From Brevibacillus sedimenti (GTDB lineage: Bacteria; Bacillota; Bacilli; Brevibacillales; Brevibacillaceae), in the NCBI RefSeq assembly GCF_020923495.1, contig NZ_CP064048.1, positions 2,791,001-2,855,000 on the forward strand: a stretch of 64,000 nucleotides of DNA, in the 5' to 3' direction. Positions 1,560 to 39,609 of this stretch are shown one piece after another (within the stretch, counting starts at the first letter, position 1; every line of letters begins with the position of its first letter). Under the pieces are notes generated by a model. That model did no database searches, was not told the origin of the DNA, and saw nothing but the letters and a program-made list of their open reading frames with translations. The position numbers were made by a program, and so were the translations under genes.

Positions 1560-1736
1560 TTTCGCGAATGTAAAAAAATTCACTCACTTTGTGCAGAGTG
1601 TGAATCAGTGATTCCCGGCAAAGGGAGATGTGGCTGGTGCGGCAATGCGTTTACCGCGGTCGTGTCGTGGGCAATCCGGAACAGCAGCGTCACCGTAATG
1701 TTTCGCGTCATTTATCGGAAATTTCCGAATAAAATA

Positions 1737-1763
1737 ACATCCCCAACCGCAATACGGGGATGT
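1737..1763 (+). other. Hairpin in the kinase 5' leader
   Basis: ACATCCCC (1737-1744) is complementary to GGGGATGT (1756-1763) across an 11-base loop. No T-tract follows, so it is not a normal terminator. It ends about 30 bases before the kinase start and directly follows a perfect palindrome, TCGGAAATTTCCGA (1715-1728). Confidence 0.4.
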
Positions 1764-1793
1764 CCATCAGTTACATATGTTACGGAGGTTGAT

Positions 1794-3788
1794 ATGAAGC
1801 AATCCCAAGCGCTGTATCCTTCGTTCTTGGCGGTAATCGCCCTGGCGGTTGTCACCGCCGTGGCACACTGGCCCGTATGGTCTTCCCAAGCCAATGGGAG
1901 ACTGCTGTTTGGTGTCCTGGAGTTGTTGGAGGTGGCGGCCTTCCTCTTGATCTTGTACCTGCTGCGGCGCGTCCGTCAACTGGAACAGGAAGTCCGCTAT
2001 CGGGAGCACAGATTCCGCAGCTATCTCGACGCCGTCCCGGACCTCCTGTTTATCAAGAGCAAAACGGGCGATCTTTTATACGTCAATCAAGCGGCCGGGA
2101 AATTCTTTGTCGGCGATTGCTCAGCCAGTCCGGAGCTGGTGGGCGTGACGGACCGTTACCGGCAAAGTCTGTTCAGCTGCCGGGAAACCGACGAACTCGT
2201 CTTTCGATCGGGAGAACCGTTCCGTCGCGTCGAAGTGTTTGAGCAGCCGGACGGATCGACACGCTTTATCGACCTGGTAAAGGTACCGGTCATGGATCCA
2301 CTGACCCATAAAGTCTCCCTCCTGATGCTGGGGCGGGACATCACCGACCAGAAGCGGGTGGAAATGGACGGACTGGCCACGAAAGAACTGCTGGAGTCCA
2401 TTCTGCAGCAAACCCCCGACGCCATCTCGGTGATTGACGTCAACGGCCGCATCAAGCGCATCAACCAGGCGTCAGAAATCATCTTTGGCTACAGCGAAGA
2501 AGAATTGATCGACCGGCCGCTGCCGTTCATCCCCACGCATTTGCAGGAAGAAGCCGACTACTACCATCAACAAGTGCTGAATGGCAAGCGCATCATTGGG
2601 CTGGAAACGGTCCGCATTCACAAAAACGGCCAACCCCTGCACGTGTCCCTCTCATTGGCGCCGATCTACGACGGCGAGGGGAAAGTGATCGGCATTGTCG
2701 GCAGCGCGCGGGACATTACCGAACAGAAGCGCGTGGAGCATCGCCTGCGGGTGAGCGAAGCAAAGTACCGGCTGATCGCCGAAAACATGACCGACATGAT
2801 CTGCGTGTACGAGGGGAGCGGTGCGGTGACCTACATGTCTCCTTCGCATGAGTCGATTCTGGGGTATCCGCTCGATCAGTTCAATCAGGTGTACGACTTC
2901 ATGGATCGGGTGCATCCGGATGACCAGAAATCCGTCCGGCAGGCGATTTGGCGCATCGGTCAAACCGGTGAAATGGCTTCGGTCGAATTCCGCTTCCTGC
3001 ACAACGGCGGCCACTGGGTCAACCTGGAATCTCGCTGCAAACCAATTGTGGATGAGACAGGACGGGTGATCAGTTTTATGATCGTCACCCGCGACATTAC
3101 GGAGAAAAAGCGGGCAGAAGAACTGCTCCGCCAGTCGGACATGCTTTCTGCCGTCGGGCAGCTGGCGGCGGGAATCGCCCACGAGATCCGCAACCCATTG
3201 ACTGCGCTGCGCGGCTTTATCCAATTAATGCAGTCGTCCGCTGAAGCCAATCGGTACTGCGGGATCATGCTCTCCGAACTGGATCGGATCAACTTGATCG
3301 TCAGCGAACTCTTGCTGTTGGCCAAGCCGCAGGCGGTCAAGTATCAGCAGCGGGAAGTGGGCGGCATCCTGAAAAACGTTCTCTCACTCCTGGACAGCCA
3401 GGCCATCTTAAACAACATCCAGATTCACACCCGAATCTCGGAGAATTTGCCGCTCATCACCTGTGAAGAAAACCAGTTGAAGCAAGTCTTCATCAATTTG
3501 TGCAAAAATGCCATCGAAGCAATGCCAAACGGGGGACACCTCCGGGTGGAGGCGGAAGAGCTGGACAAAGGCGAGGTGCGAATCAGGATCATTGATACGG
3601 GGGGCGGGATCGACCCGGAACAGATTCCGCGCCTGGGCGAGCCCTTTTACACCACCAAGGGAAAGGGGACCGGACTTGGCCTGATGGTCAGCCGCAGGAT
3701 CATCCAGGAGCACGGCGGCCAAATCGTGATTTCCAGCGAACCGGGCAAAGGAACGACGGTCGATGTCATCCTCCCCGTCATGGCCTGA
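1794..3788 (+). CDS. Membrane PAS-domain sensor histidine kinase, sporulation-kinase type
   Basis: This 664-residue kinase autophosphorylates on a histidine and passes phosphate to a response regulator. It has two membrane helices (about residues 9-28 and 37-56), three PAS domains (about 70-190, 195-315 and 325-440), a HisKA domain with the phospho-acceptor in AHEIRNP (His463), and a HATPase domain with NLCKNAIEAMP, DTGGGID and GKGTGLGLM motifs. The HisKA sequence is of the KinA/KinC/KinE type that feeds the Spo0F-Spo0A phosphorelay. ATG 1794 is preferred because ACGGAGG lies six bases upstream and the hydrophobic N-terminus starts there. No cognate response regulator is adjacent, as expected for an orphan sporulation kinase. 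Which kin orthologue it is cannot be decided by eye. Confidence 0.88.
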   Translation: MKQSQALYPSFLAVIALAVVTAVAHWPVWSSQANGRLLFGVLELLEVAAFLLILYLLRRVRQLEQEVRYREHRFRSYLDAVPDLLFIKSKTGDLLYVNQAAGKFFVGDCSASPELVGVTDRYRQSLFSCRETDELVFRSGEPFRRVEVFEQPDGSTRFIDLVKVPVMDPLTHKVSLLMLGRDITDQKRVEMDGLATKELLESILQQTPDAISVIDVNGRIKRINQASEIIFGYSEEELIDRPLPFIPTHLQEEADYYHQQVLNGKRIIGLETVRIHKNGQPLHVSLSLAPIYDGEGKVIGIVGSARDITEQKRVEHRLRVSEAKYRLIAENMTDMICVYEGSGAVTYMSPSHESILGYPLDQFNQVYDFMDRVHPDDQKSVRQAIWRIGQTGEMASVEFRFLHNGGHWVNLESRCKPIVDETGRVISFMIVTRDITEKKRAEELLRQSDMLSAVGQLAAGIAHEIRNPLTALRGFIQLMQSSAEANRYCGIMLSELDRINLIVSELLLLAKPQAVKYQQREVGGILKNVLSLLDSQAILNNIQIHTRISENLPLITCEENQLKQVFINLCKNAIEAMPNGGHLRVEAEELDKGEVRIRIIDTGGGIDPEQIPRLGEPFYTTKGKGTGLGLMVSRRIIQEHGGQIVISSEPGKGTTVDVILPVMA

Positions 3789-37274: not shown

Positions 37275-37460
37275 GAAAAAAGAAAATAGATGTATCAAAG
37301 ATACTGACAATTGGAAGCATTACGAGTACCGCTTGTTTATTGGTTCCGTATGACCAATGAAGAAGTGGTATTTTTTTACAATCCAGAAGGGGGTAAGGCA
37401 GGATGAGACATGCCCGGGATATCTTGCTGCCAGAAGTGATGAGCAGTACATAATTCTTTA

Positions 37461-37514
37461 TTGATATATTCATAAACATCATTATAACCAAATTAAAATG
37501 AAATTTGTTTGGTT
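37461..37514 (+). promoter_or_regulatory. Promoter with overlapping inverted repeat upstream of rsbT-like gene
   Basis: TTGATA (37461-37466), a 16-base spacer and TATAAC (37483-37488) form a candidate sigma-A promoter. The inverted repeat AACCAAA (37486-37492) and TTTGGTT (37508-37514) overlaps the -10 end and the start site, as an operator would. The surrounding DNA is AT-rich. Confidence 0.5.
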
Positions 37515-37529
37515 CCTTGGAGGATTCCT

Positions 37530-37934
37530 GTGCCGATCACCTATCAAAAAGTGAATATCTCTTCCGAAGACGATATTTATTTTGCGTTAAGTACGGTTCG
37601 TCATTTTATGAAGCAGCTCCCTTTTTCCGAGGCGGATCAGCAGAAGATTTTCGTGAGCGTGTCAGAGTTAACCCGAAACATACTGGATCACGCCTTCAGC
37701 AAGGGGATCATTTGTTGTGAATTGCTCGAACAGGGAATACGCTTGGTCGTTACCGATGAAGGGCCGGGAATTCTCGATGTTGAGGACGTGATCAACGGCA
37801 AACGGCGATCGTCGTCACGAGGATTGGGACTCGGCTTATCCGGCGTAAAGCGACTGATGGATGAATTCCACATCGAAACTTCAAGGAGAGGAACGAGGAT
37901 CGTTGCAATCAAATGGGCAACCAAGCAGCCATAA
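37530..37934 (+). CDS. RsbT-like serine/threonine protein kinase
   Basis: This 134-residue GHKL-fold kinase is of the RsbT type, the stressosome switch kinase that phosphorylates STAS proteins RsbR and RsbS. Visible motifs are SELTRNILDHA (N box), TDEGPGI (G1) and SRGLGLGLSGVKRLMDEF (G2), and it ends TRIVAIKWATK, very close to RsbT. GTG 37530 follows GGAGGA; an upstream ATG at 37509 lacks a ribosome site. The next gene begins inside this one and encodes a protein with an RsbR-like STAS domain, its likely substrate. No RsbS or RsbU gene is nearby. Confidence 0.85.
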   Translation: MPITYQKVNISSEDDIYFALSTVRHFMKQLPFSEADQQKIFVSVSELTRNILDHAFSKGIICCELLEQGIRLVVTDEGPGILDVEDVINGKRRSSSRGLGLGLSGVKRLMDEFHIETSRRGTRIVAIKWATKQP

Positions 37935-39435
37935 CACACAAAAGACAGAAGATACCTTGAGCCGCCTTGCTTCGATCGGCCAAATTGCAGCGGGGATCGC
38001 ACATGAAGTGAGAAATCCGTTAACCGCAGTGAAGGGATTTTTGCAGCTGCTCAAGGAAGAGATTTCCCATGGGTATTTGGATATTGCCTGTTCCGAACTG
38101 GACCAGGCGATTGCGACGCTGCAGGATTTGCTGCAGGTATGCAAACCTGATTTGGAAGAAGAGTCGTATCTTTCGATCAATCTCTGTTCCGAATTGGAGT
38201 CTCTGCTCTACTTGTTTCAGGATCAAATCTATCGGGTGCAAATTGTCCGGAACTTTCGCAATTGTGATGAAGTTATCTGGGGAAAACGCAACCAGTTGAA
38301 GAAAGCCTTTTTCAATCTCTTGAAAAATGCGTTTGAAGCCATTCCCCATGAAGGCATCATCACCATCGACCATTACCGTATGGGTGACTTTGTGTACGTC
38401 AGCATTTCGGACACAGGAGTCGGTGTGCCGAGGGAAAAGCTTCAACTGTTGGGTACTCCCTTCTTCACAACAAAAGATGAGGGGACGGGCATGGGCCTGA
38501 CACAGGTGTTTTCAACCATTTATCAACATGGAGGAACCATTGAGGTAAAGAGTACAGAAGGCATCGGCACAACATTCACCATTCAGTTTCCGATTGAAAT
38601 GATCGAACAAATTGGAGTGATGGATATGAACATGCAATACGTGGAAGGCCAGAGTTTTCAAGAGTATTTCGCCATGAATGAAGATCGCTTTCACGAGCTG
38701 TTTGCCCACGAAACGAAAGGGACCAACCAGCTCATCGCCGACTCCATGTACAATATTGATGTAGGGGACATTTTTGTCAGAATGGCCAAACTCCTGGTCG
38801 AAGAGCGGCAGCATGAGCTGACGATGCTCGCGAAGGAACTGGGCAAGACGGGTGCGAGAAATGATGTCCCGCTCGTCATCAAACTGGAATTGATCCAGGC
38901 GTTTCGCAAGGTGTATTGGAATTTATTACATAACTATTATCAGAATGTCGGACTGGACATGGAAGGTGTCTTCCAGCTTGGCATCAAAACGAATTTTCTC
39001 TTGGATCATTACATTTTCCACTATTTCTCCAGTTACATCGAGTACAAGGATGAACTGCTGCGTTCCCACCGTGAAACGATAGATGACCTGTCGGTTCCCA
39101 TCATTCCGTTATCCGCTTCCATGGCGGTGCTGCCCATTGTCGGCACCCTGGATACCTATCGGGCGAAAAAAGTGCAGGAGCGAACGCTCAATCAAATTGC
39201 CAACCTGAAGATTCAAAAAATTATTATTGATTTGTCCGGTGTGGCGTTCATGGACACAGCCGTGGTGGGCCATTTGTTTCGCATCGTAGAAGGAATCGGG
39301 CTGCTCGGATGCAAGGCGATCATCACCGGGATTCGCCCGGAAATCGCCAACACCATGATCGAATTGGGCATTGCGTTTACTGAAAAGGTGGTGACCAAGG
39401 CCACGCTGCAGCAAGCCTTGGAGGAGCTTCAATAA
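37903..39435 (+). CDS. Histidine kinase fused to RsbR-like STAS domain
   Basis: This protein of about 510 residues joins two signalling families. Residues 1-230 are a soluble histidine kinase without a sensor domain: AGIAHEVRNPLTAVKGFLQL with phospho-acceptor His34, then HATPase motifs NLLKNAFEAIP, DTGVGVP and GTGMGLTQ. Residues 245-385 look like an RsbR N-terminal helical domain, and 396-510 are a STAS domain with Thr residues in GTLDTYRA (415, 418) and FMDTAVV (Thr452), matching the Thr sites phosphorylated by RsbT in RsbRA. TTG 37903 lies after GAGGAACGAGG and overlaps the RsbT gene by 32 bases; ATG 37861 is an alternative. It may connect STAS switching to phosphotransfer near Spo0A. The base composition is AT-richer than its neighbours. 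Confidence 0.82.
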   Translation: MQSNGQPSSHNTQKTEDTLSRLASIGQIAAGIAHEVRNPLTAVKGFLQLLKEEISHGYLDIACSELDQAIATLQDLLQVCKPDLEEESYLSINLCSELESLLYLFQDQIYRVQIVRNFRNCDEVIWGKRNQLKKAFFNLLKNAFEAIPHEGIITIDHYRMGDFVYVSISDTGVGVPREKLQLLGTPFFTTKDEGTGMGLTQVFSTIYQHGGTIEVKSTEGIGTTFTIQFPIEMIEQIGVMDMNMQYVEGQSFQEYFAMNEDRFHELFAHETKGTNQLIADSMYNIDVGDIFVRMAKLLVEERQHELTMLAKELGKTGARNDVPLVIKLELIQAFRKVYWNLLHNYYQNVGLDMEGVFQLGIKTNFLLDHYIFHYFSSYIEYKDELLRSHRETIDDLSVPIIPLSASMAVLPIVGTLDTYRAKKVQERTLNQIANLKIQKIIIDLSGVAFMDTAVVGHLFRIVEGIGLLGCKAIITGIRPEIANTMIELGIAFTEKVVTKATLQQALEELQ

Positions 39436-39462
39436 ATATGGAAAGCATTTTCTGGAAACCTG

Positions 39463-39490
39463 CCCCCTTATCCAAGAGGGGGTTCTTTTT
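39463..39490 (+). terminator. Terminator after the kinase-STAS gene
   Basis: CCCCCT pairs with AGGGGG across a short loop, followed by TTCTTTTT. Confidence 0.75.
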
Positions 39491-39546
39491 GCCTAGCCTC
39501 CATGCTGCGAGCAGGCACATTGCGTTGGCGGACTTCTCGCAATGTG

Positions 39547-39574
39547 TTGATTCCCTGCTTCTTTCTAGTACAAT
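39547..39574 (+). promoter_or_regulatory. Sigma-A promoter of carbonic anhydrase
   Basis: TTGATT (39547-39552), a 16-base spacer and TACAAT (39569-39574), 35 bases before the ATG. Confidence 0.55.
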
Positions 39575-39609
39575 GAGGAAATAACCCTTGCAAAGAGTGG
39601 TGATCACGC

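Follow-up and report, generated by a model that had tools for sequence, protein, structure and literature searches.

An RsbT kinase paired with a histidine kinase-RsbR fusion in Brevibacillus sedimenti: a candidate link between stressosome-type regulation and the sporulation phosphorelay

The 64,000-nucleotide stretch of DNA analysed here (the window) comprises positions 2,791,001 to 2,855,000 of the forward strand of contig NZ_CP064048.1 and is part of the complete 3.93-Mb genome of Brevibacillus sedimenti. It carries a two-gene module in which a gene for an RsbT-type serine/threonine kinase is followed by one for a fusion protein joining a histidine kinase to an RsbR-like half. Both RsbT-target threonines of RsbR co-antagonists are found in the STAS domain of the fusion. 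The module is laid out as follows:

37530..37934, + strand: rsbT-type serine/threonine kinase, 134 residues, GTG start
37903..39435, + strand: histidine kinase-globin-STAS fusion, 510 residues from the TTG at 37903
37978..38139, + strand: HisKA dimerisation/phosphoacceptor domain, residues 26-79 (Pfam)
38002-38004, + strand: codon of the phosphoacceptor His34
38023..38049, + strand: six Spo0F-specificity positions T41, A42, G45, F46, Q48 and L49 (TAGFQL), within residues 41-49
38284..38598, + strand: HATPase_c catalytic domain, residues 128-232 (Pfam)
38656..39090, + strand: non-heme-globin-like domain of RsbR-N type with linker helix, residues 252-396
39118..39414, + strand: RsbR-type STAS domain, residues 406-504 (Pfam)
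39154..39156, + strand: codon of Thr418, aligned with residue 175 of Listeria RsbR (7b0u)
39256..39258, + strand: codon of Thr452, aligned with residue 209 of Listeria RsbR (7b0u)

All Pfam matches on the fusion (HisKA, HATPase_c and STAS) exceed their cut-offs. In sequence searches the kinase core matches ZraS and KinB, the residues of the N, G1 and G2 boxes are all present, and the nearest named match of the fusion is from Brevibacillus thermoruber 423 (93%). The STAS domain with its linker (residues 377-507) matches Listeria RsbR (7b0u) at 7.5e-24, and in its predicted structure the C-terminal half resembles a whole RsbR, that is, a non-heme globin with STAS. An earlier reading made from the letters of the DNA (the sequence-only reading) had described HisKA and HATPase domains with His34, followed by an RsbR-like region and STAS, and the domain search recovers all of these. 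It had also placed RsbT target positions at Thr415/418 and Thr452. Thr418 and Thr452 hold, the reference for the alignment being the RsbR chain of Listeria innocua, whose residues 175 and 209 we take to be the equivalents of T171 and T205 of B. subtilis RsbRA; Thr415 is not a conserved target position, since five of the 23 rsbT-positive rows have V, S, M or N there. T171 and T205 are targets of RsbT in B. subtilis, T205 only under extreme stress (PMC3944199).

The smaller gene encodes a protein with a HATPase_c_2 match above the Pfam cut-off, in which Glu46, Asn50, D76-x-G-x-G (D76, G78, G80) and GLGLGL (G98, G100, G102) are invariant in 20 rows. Its best NCBIfam match is anti-sigma F, below the cut-off (43.6 bits against 135), and anti-sigma F is also its only significant match in the PDB. 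A tree places it among the RsbTs of other modules, apart from the sigB-operon RsbT and from RsbW; the RsbW-like rows form a clade of their own (100/100) and the sigB-operon RsbTs another (97/91), on the RsbT side. Open reading frame (ORF) coordinates, domain match and tree together bear out the description of an RsbT-like kinase gene that overlaps the fusion gene by 32 bases, provided that translation begins at the TTG (37903); an in-frame ATG further upstream, at 37861, would give 524 residues.

The pair recurs in relatives. A survey of the class gave matches in 48 of 398 genomes at 1e-70; four of these (G118, G181, G277 and G313) match over the kinase core only, leaving 44 fusion genomes, including some with split or partial fusions, and a survey of the order (14 of 39 genomes) added G400 to make 45. 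Among 47 fusion loci, the window and 46 fetched ones (mostly with 8 kb on each side), a profile of RsbT rows found rsbT immediately upstream of the fusion gene and overlapping it in 21 (20 of the 46 fetched and the window). The other 26 comprise L075 with a broken rsbT, L087 cut by a contig edge and 24 with none in the stretch fetched. A genome-wide rsbT search, run on 33 of the 45 fusion genomes and covering all 24 of the latter loci, detected an unlinked rsbT (134-191 bits) for L051, L055 and L056, with no STAS gene beside it. Two of these RsbTs fall among the module RsbTs in the tree (L127, 98/91; L128, 93/98), and the third (L129) groups weakly with those of L082 and L083 (88/52). RsbT matches in the remaining rsbT-negative genomes do not exceed 119 bits, and those placed in the tree fall with the sigB-operon type, except that of G085.

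The principal finding is one of co-evolution: a module-type rsbT goes together with Thr418. All 24 fusions with such a gene have this residue (21/21 linked, 3/3 unlinked) and none of the 21 others does; L075 and L087 retain it as well. Thr452 is present in 20 of 21 fusions with a linked rsbT, in 3 of 3 with an unlinked one and in 5 of 21 others. Thr418 persists in L075 and after all three recent unlinkings, as one would expect if the presence of the gene, not its position, matters. In a scan of 497 alignment columns for entropy gain in 17 rsbT-negative over 23 rsbT-positive rows, with the sites not given as input, Thr418 ranked first, K422 second, A421 third, Thr452 fourth and A453 fifth. The rsbT-positive rows have 69 invariant columns; 54 of them do not vary in the rsbT-negative rows either, and of all 69 Thr418 is the most variable there. 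The kinase residues checked (His34, Glu35, Asn38, Asn138, Asn142, Asp170 and glycines 172, 174, 196 and 198) are kept in 40 of 40 rows, and loss of the His or ATP-binding residues in homologues was not seen. The column scan, the residue counts and the kept catalytic residues indicate an association of the module RsbT with constraint at the sites it is expected to target; the histidine kinase, judged by conservation, survives the loss of rsbT.

As to the output of the module, six residues specify Spo0F kinases according to Davidson et al. (PMC6136694), reading TAGFQL in KinA and KinE and TVGFQL in KinB. Comparison with Table 1 of that paper makes the fusion an exact match to KinA and KinE at positions 41, 42, 45, 46, 48 and 49. 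TAGFQL occurs in 32 of the 47 fusion rows, the window included, and near-variants in 14; one row does not cover the site. Six of the 26 HisKA kinases of the window genome, the fusion and five others, fit T.GFQ[LIMF]. Elsewhere in the window, a 726-residue ORF at 1608-3788 (+), apparently with several PAS domains by eye, contains HEIRNPLTALRGFIQLM, which gives TAGFQL. The genome encodes Spo0F (L174, recognised by sequence), Spo0B (SPOB_ab, between apparent rpmA and obg) and Spo0A. Of the 47 loci, 45 show no receiver ORF within 1 kb of the fusion and two show one; the window's own receiver neighbour is spo0A, a link that is not conserved, and in L052 a receiver protein is encoded 258 bases from the fusion. 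The N domain of RsbU is the usual partner of free RsbT; RsbU_N is present in the window genome; 16 of the 24 module genomes gave no hit for it. The TAGFQL match, the phosphorelay genes, the module genomes without an RsbU_N hit and the scarcity of nearby receivers favour the kinase as the probable output and the phosphorelay as its probable target.

A number of observations weigh against this interpretation. Mean entropy change from rsbT-positive to rsbT-negative rows is +0.54 bit in STAS and +0.05 in the kinase core, and the -0.54 in the globin-like part shows such differences to be partly confounded by clade. The rsbT-bearing L062 has K at position 452, and a second fusion copy in G149 (L067) is without Thr418 though the other copy has a linked rsbT. 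In G085 an unlinked RsbT-like gene, which falls in neither the module nor the sigB clades, accompanies a fusion that lacks Thr418. G116, whose unlinked RsbT is the weakly placed one, also holds an RsbS-RsbT pair, and the module RsbTs do not form a single clade. Nine rsbT-negative genomes are classed by score alone (62-109 bits against at least 133 for the module type), not by tree. The tree implies six changes of rsbT status when linked copies alone are counted, and two when the unlinked ones are included and L075 and L087 left out; a sign test on independent pairs, of which there is one on starred branches and two on all, cannot reach significance. Only about two independent losses of rsbT thus lie beneath the co-loss of Thr418. 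A Spo0B profile detected its target in 25 of the 45 fusion genomes (above the cut-off in 24), although this protein diverges strongly (PMC12826061). Spo0A_C is listed in 43 of the 44 class-survey fusion genomes (the other, G171, is 91% complete, in 400 contigs), which is weak evidence, 325 of all 398 class genomes having Spo0A.

The module apparently moves horizontally, as suggested by fusion and Spo0A identities to the window that run opposite ways. In G376, of another family, the fusion is 83% identical and Spo0A 71%, and in G396 and G298 the fusion reaches 81% and 79% against 63% for Spo0A. Within the window's own family the fusion is 59% identical in G042 and 52% in G164, against 86% and 87% for Spo0A. 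A phylum-wide draw found matches in 3 of 398 genomes at 1e-90, all of the window's class and one (G096) without the kinase half. The guanine-plus-cytosine (GC) content of the fusion is below that of its flanks in all 46 fetched loci, by a mean of 6.1 points; as a rough control, 169 other long ORFs average 2.3 points above the GC of their locus, with 36 below it. In the window, rsbT and the fusion have 46-48% GC and the DNA further out mostly 53-63%, in agreement with the sequence-only reading, which had noted AT-richer DNA. Relatives carry the database names ATP-binding protein, anti-anti-sigma factor, rsbT co-antagonist RsbR and histidine kinase, a mixture which suggests that the module has not been recognised as one family. 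It is a real and recurrent module joining two known kinds of signalling, and we found no description of it in the literature searched.

Several variants and partial relatives were encountered. In L080 (7971-11192) the fusion is split after about residue 283 by some 1.6 kb with a 447-residue ORF on the opposite strand. Kinases of about 350 residues (L092-L095; PAS-type by eye) have cores 54-56% identical to that of the fusion, and Priestia and Mesobacillus plasmids (H1-H5) carry similar cores (57-59%). Kinase-less globin-STAS relatives of about 280-300 residues occur in many genomes. One such gene (L139 8699-9531, - strand), with both threonines and split in two ORFs, lies just upstream of the rsbT of L062; another (G096:C55; L166 8224-9078) is missing both threonines, with no rsbT in the 17 kb fetched.

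On its upstream side the module is bordered by spo0A, and two features lie in between:

37324..37373, + strand: terminator-like hairpin followed by a U run (-26.5 kcal/mol, z -8.7; absent from the pattern-scan listing)
37461..37488, + strand: possible promoter of the module's own, TTGATA-16-TATAAC (by eye; not listed by the promoter scan)

The statement that the module lies directly downstream of spo0A is literally correct, rsbT following after 255 bases on the same strand, but a strong hairpin stands between them and the linkage is not conserved. The fusion has spo0A nearby in 2 of 47 loci, the window and L046; the latter has TTGATA-16-TATAAT at the corresponding place, and an insertion-element pair of IS21 type and a further ORF between spo0A and the module. 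Six relatives examined at the spoIVB-spo0A 3' junction have it empty (two) or filled with unrelated cargo (four). A carbonic-anhydrase gene follows spo0A after about 115 or 180 bases in G042 and G312, both of which have the fusion elsewhere. The junction between spo0A and carbonic anhydrase (window 37275-39609; L167-L172) is a variable spot, at which the module sits in the window and L046. Because of the 2 of 47 loci, the hairpin that parts the units and the junction empty in two relatives, the neighbourhood looks accidental and the link lineage-specific, and no meaning of the location is supported. Short distance and shared strand notwithstanding, a functional adjacency, by co-transcription or co-regulation, is very improbable, given also the element inserted in one of the two loci and the empty or unrelated junctions of the six relatives.

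No rsbS, rsbU, rsbW or sigB lies near the module in the window. This had been noted earlier and is true, but rsbT-rsbU-rsbV-rsbW-sigB sits 1.3 Mb away (L131; G000:C1, about 1,509.1-1,514.3 kb), behind genes that we take to be alr, ndoAI and ndoA. That operon is without rsbR and rsbS, which leaves its RsbT without a neighbouring antagonist. A search of the genome turned up four STAS domains, namely a SpoIIAA-like one (L132), RsbV (L131), one of anti-sigma-antagonist type by eye (L004) and that of the fusion, and none of them looks like RsbS. A canonical RsbR/RsbS stressosome therefore seems not to be available, and with a sigB operon that also lacks rsbR and rsbS we do not classify the module as a stressosome. 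It may act like one with a homomeric core.

We propose that the fusion would be a Spo0F-directed histidine kinase of the kind represented by KinA and KinB, with a putatively complete RsbR (non-heme globin and STAS) as sensor and regulatory half, C-terminal to the kinase. RsbT would dock on STAS and phosphorylate Thr418 and probably Thr452; this would set the state (autokinase or phosphatase) of the histidine-kinase core, which would in turn feed Spo0F, Spo0B and Spo0A. The computed results are the domains present, the fold as modelled, the conserved catalytic residues, the association of Thr418 with rsbT, the specificity match and the phosphorelay genes; all function is inferred, including threonine phosphorylation itself, the direction of its effect, the phosphotransfer target and the signal. 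The earlier suggestion that threonine phosphorylation gates a phosphorelay kinase may draw indirect support from the co-loss of rsbT and Thr418 and from TAGFQL, and on balance we lean towards RsbT phosphorylating the STAS half and thereby setting a Spo0F-directed kinase. A more specific picture is possible but doubtful: a single-protein, homomeric stressosome with histidine-kinase arms, in which phosphorylation of the STAS core by RsbT directly throttles the sporulation phosphorelay, so that one polypeptide would unite serine/threonine with histidine phosphorylation. In this picture the module is passed horizontally among spore-formers and reduced by loss of RsbT to a plain globin/STAS-sensing kinase.

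The histidine kinase might be regulated by RsbT and yet have as its partner a response regulator other than Spo0F. The partial detection of Spo0B and the receiver beside the fusion in L052 fit this, as does the degeneracy of kinase specificity residues (PMC6136694); identity with KinA and KinE at all six positions, the 45 loci without a receiver and the frequency of Spo0A_C in fusion genomes oppose it and make it unlikely. Alternatively, the STAS/globin half could be a sensor or oligomerisation platform only, with threonine phosphorylation irrelevant to the kinase. Members without rsbT and Thr418 do retain a conserved kinase, so in those lineages this phosphorylation is not needed for kinase function. 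Retention of the overlapping pair in 21 loci argues otherwise, as does the correlation of rsbT and fusion identities (0.91 over 190 pairs), which shared ancestry alone could suffice to produce, and we regard the idea as improbable. A shade less credible still is that RsbT is the output, held by a stressosome-like fusion and freed to RsbU and sigma-B, with His phosphorylation as the input. The window genome has RsbU, and as its sigB operon is without rsbR and rsbS, no RsbR-type protein other than the fusion was found in the genome; that operon, however, carries its own RsbT of a separate clade, most module genomes yielded no RsbU_N, and after loss of the module rsbT it is the kinase half that stays and the STAS sites that decay.

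The model organism's general stress response and sporulation phosphorelay are regarded as two distinct pathways. If our proposal is true, they meet in one molecule, RsbT has a reach beyond RsbU and sigma factors, and RsbR serves as a portable regulatory module. The two genes, which occur in various spore-formers, join a stress-type protein kinase to one protein resembling a stress-sensor scaffold as well as a sporulation-type histidine kinase. This pairing suggests that stress sensing is coupled directly, at the molecular level, to the decision to sporulate, and fusions with and without RsbT offer a natural comparison for the predicted phosphosite. With the RsbRST stressosome of B. subtilis and Listeria the module shares the RsbT kinase and a globin-like N domain plus STAS with two RsbT-site threonines; it differs in that no RsbS was found, in the lack of linked RsbU, RsbV, RsbW and sigma-B, and in the histidine kinase fused before the RsbR part. 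The non-heme globins pXO1-118 and pXO2-61 (PDB 3pmd and 3pmc) are sporulation inhibitors linked to a sporulation kinase. They control sporulation via a sensor kinase (PMC8396549) as separate small proteins, whereas in the fusion the globin is part of the kinase, with STAS behind it. In Vibrio, RsbRSTX loci beside two-component genes likewise tie stressosome proteins to two-component signalling with no sigma factor, but the proteins are separate, RsbS and RsbX are present, and the available text of the report describes no fusion (PMC9237108). The sporulation kinases KinA-KinE resemble the fusion in the HisKA/HATPase core, the TAGFQL residues and the lack of a receiver gene beside it in nearly all loci. 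Known sporulation kinases have N-terminal PAS or membrane sensors; the fusion, unlike them, would be regulated by a C-terminal RsbR half with a serine/threonine kinase of its own.
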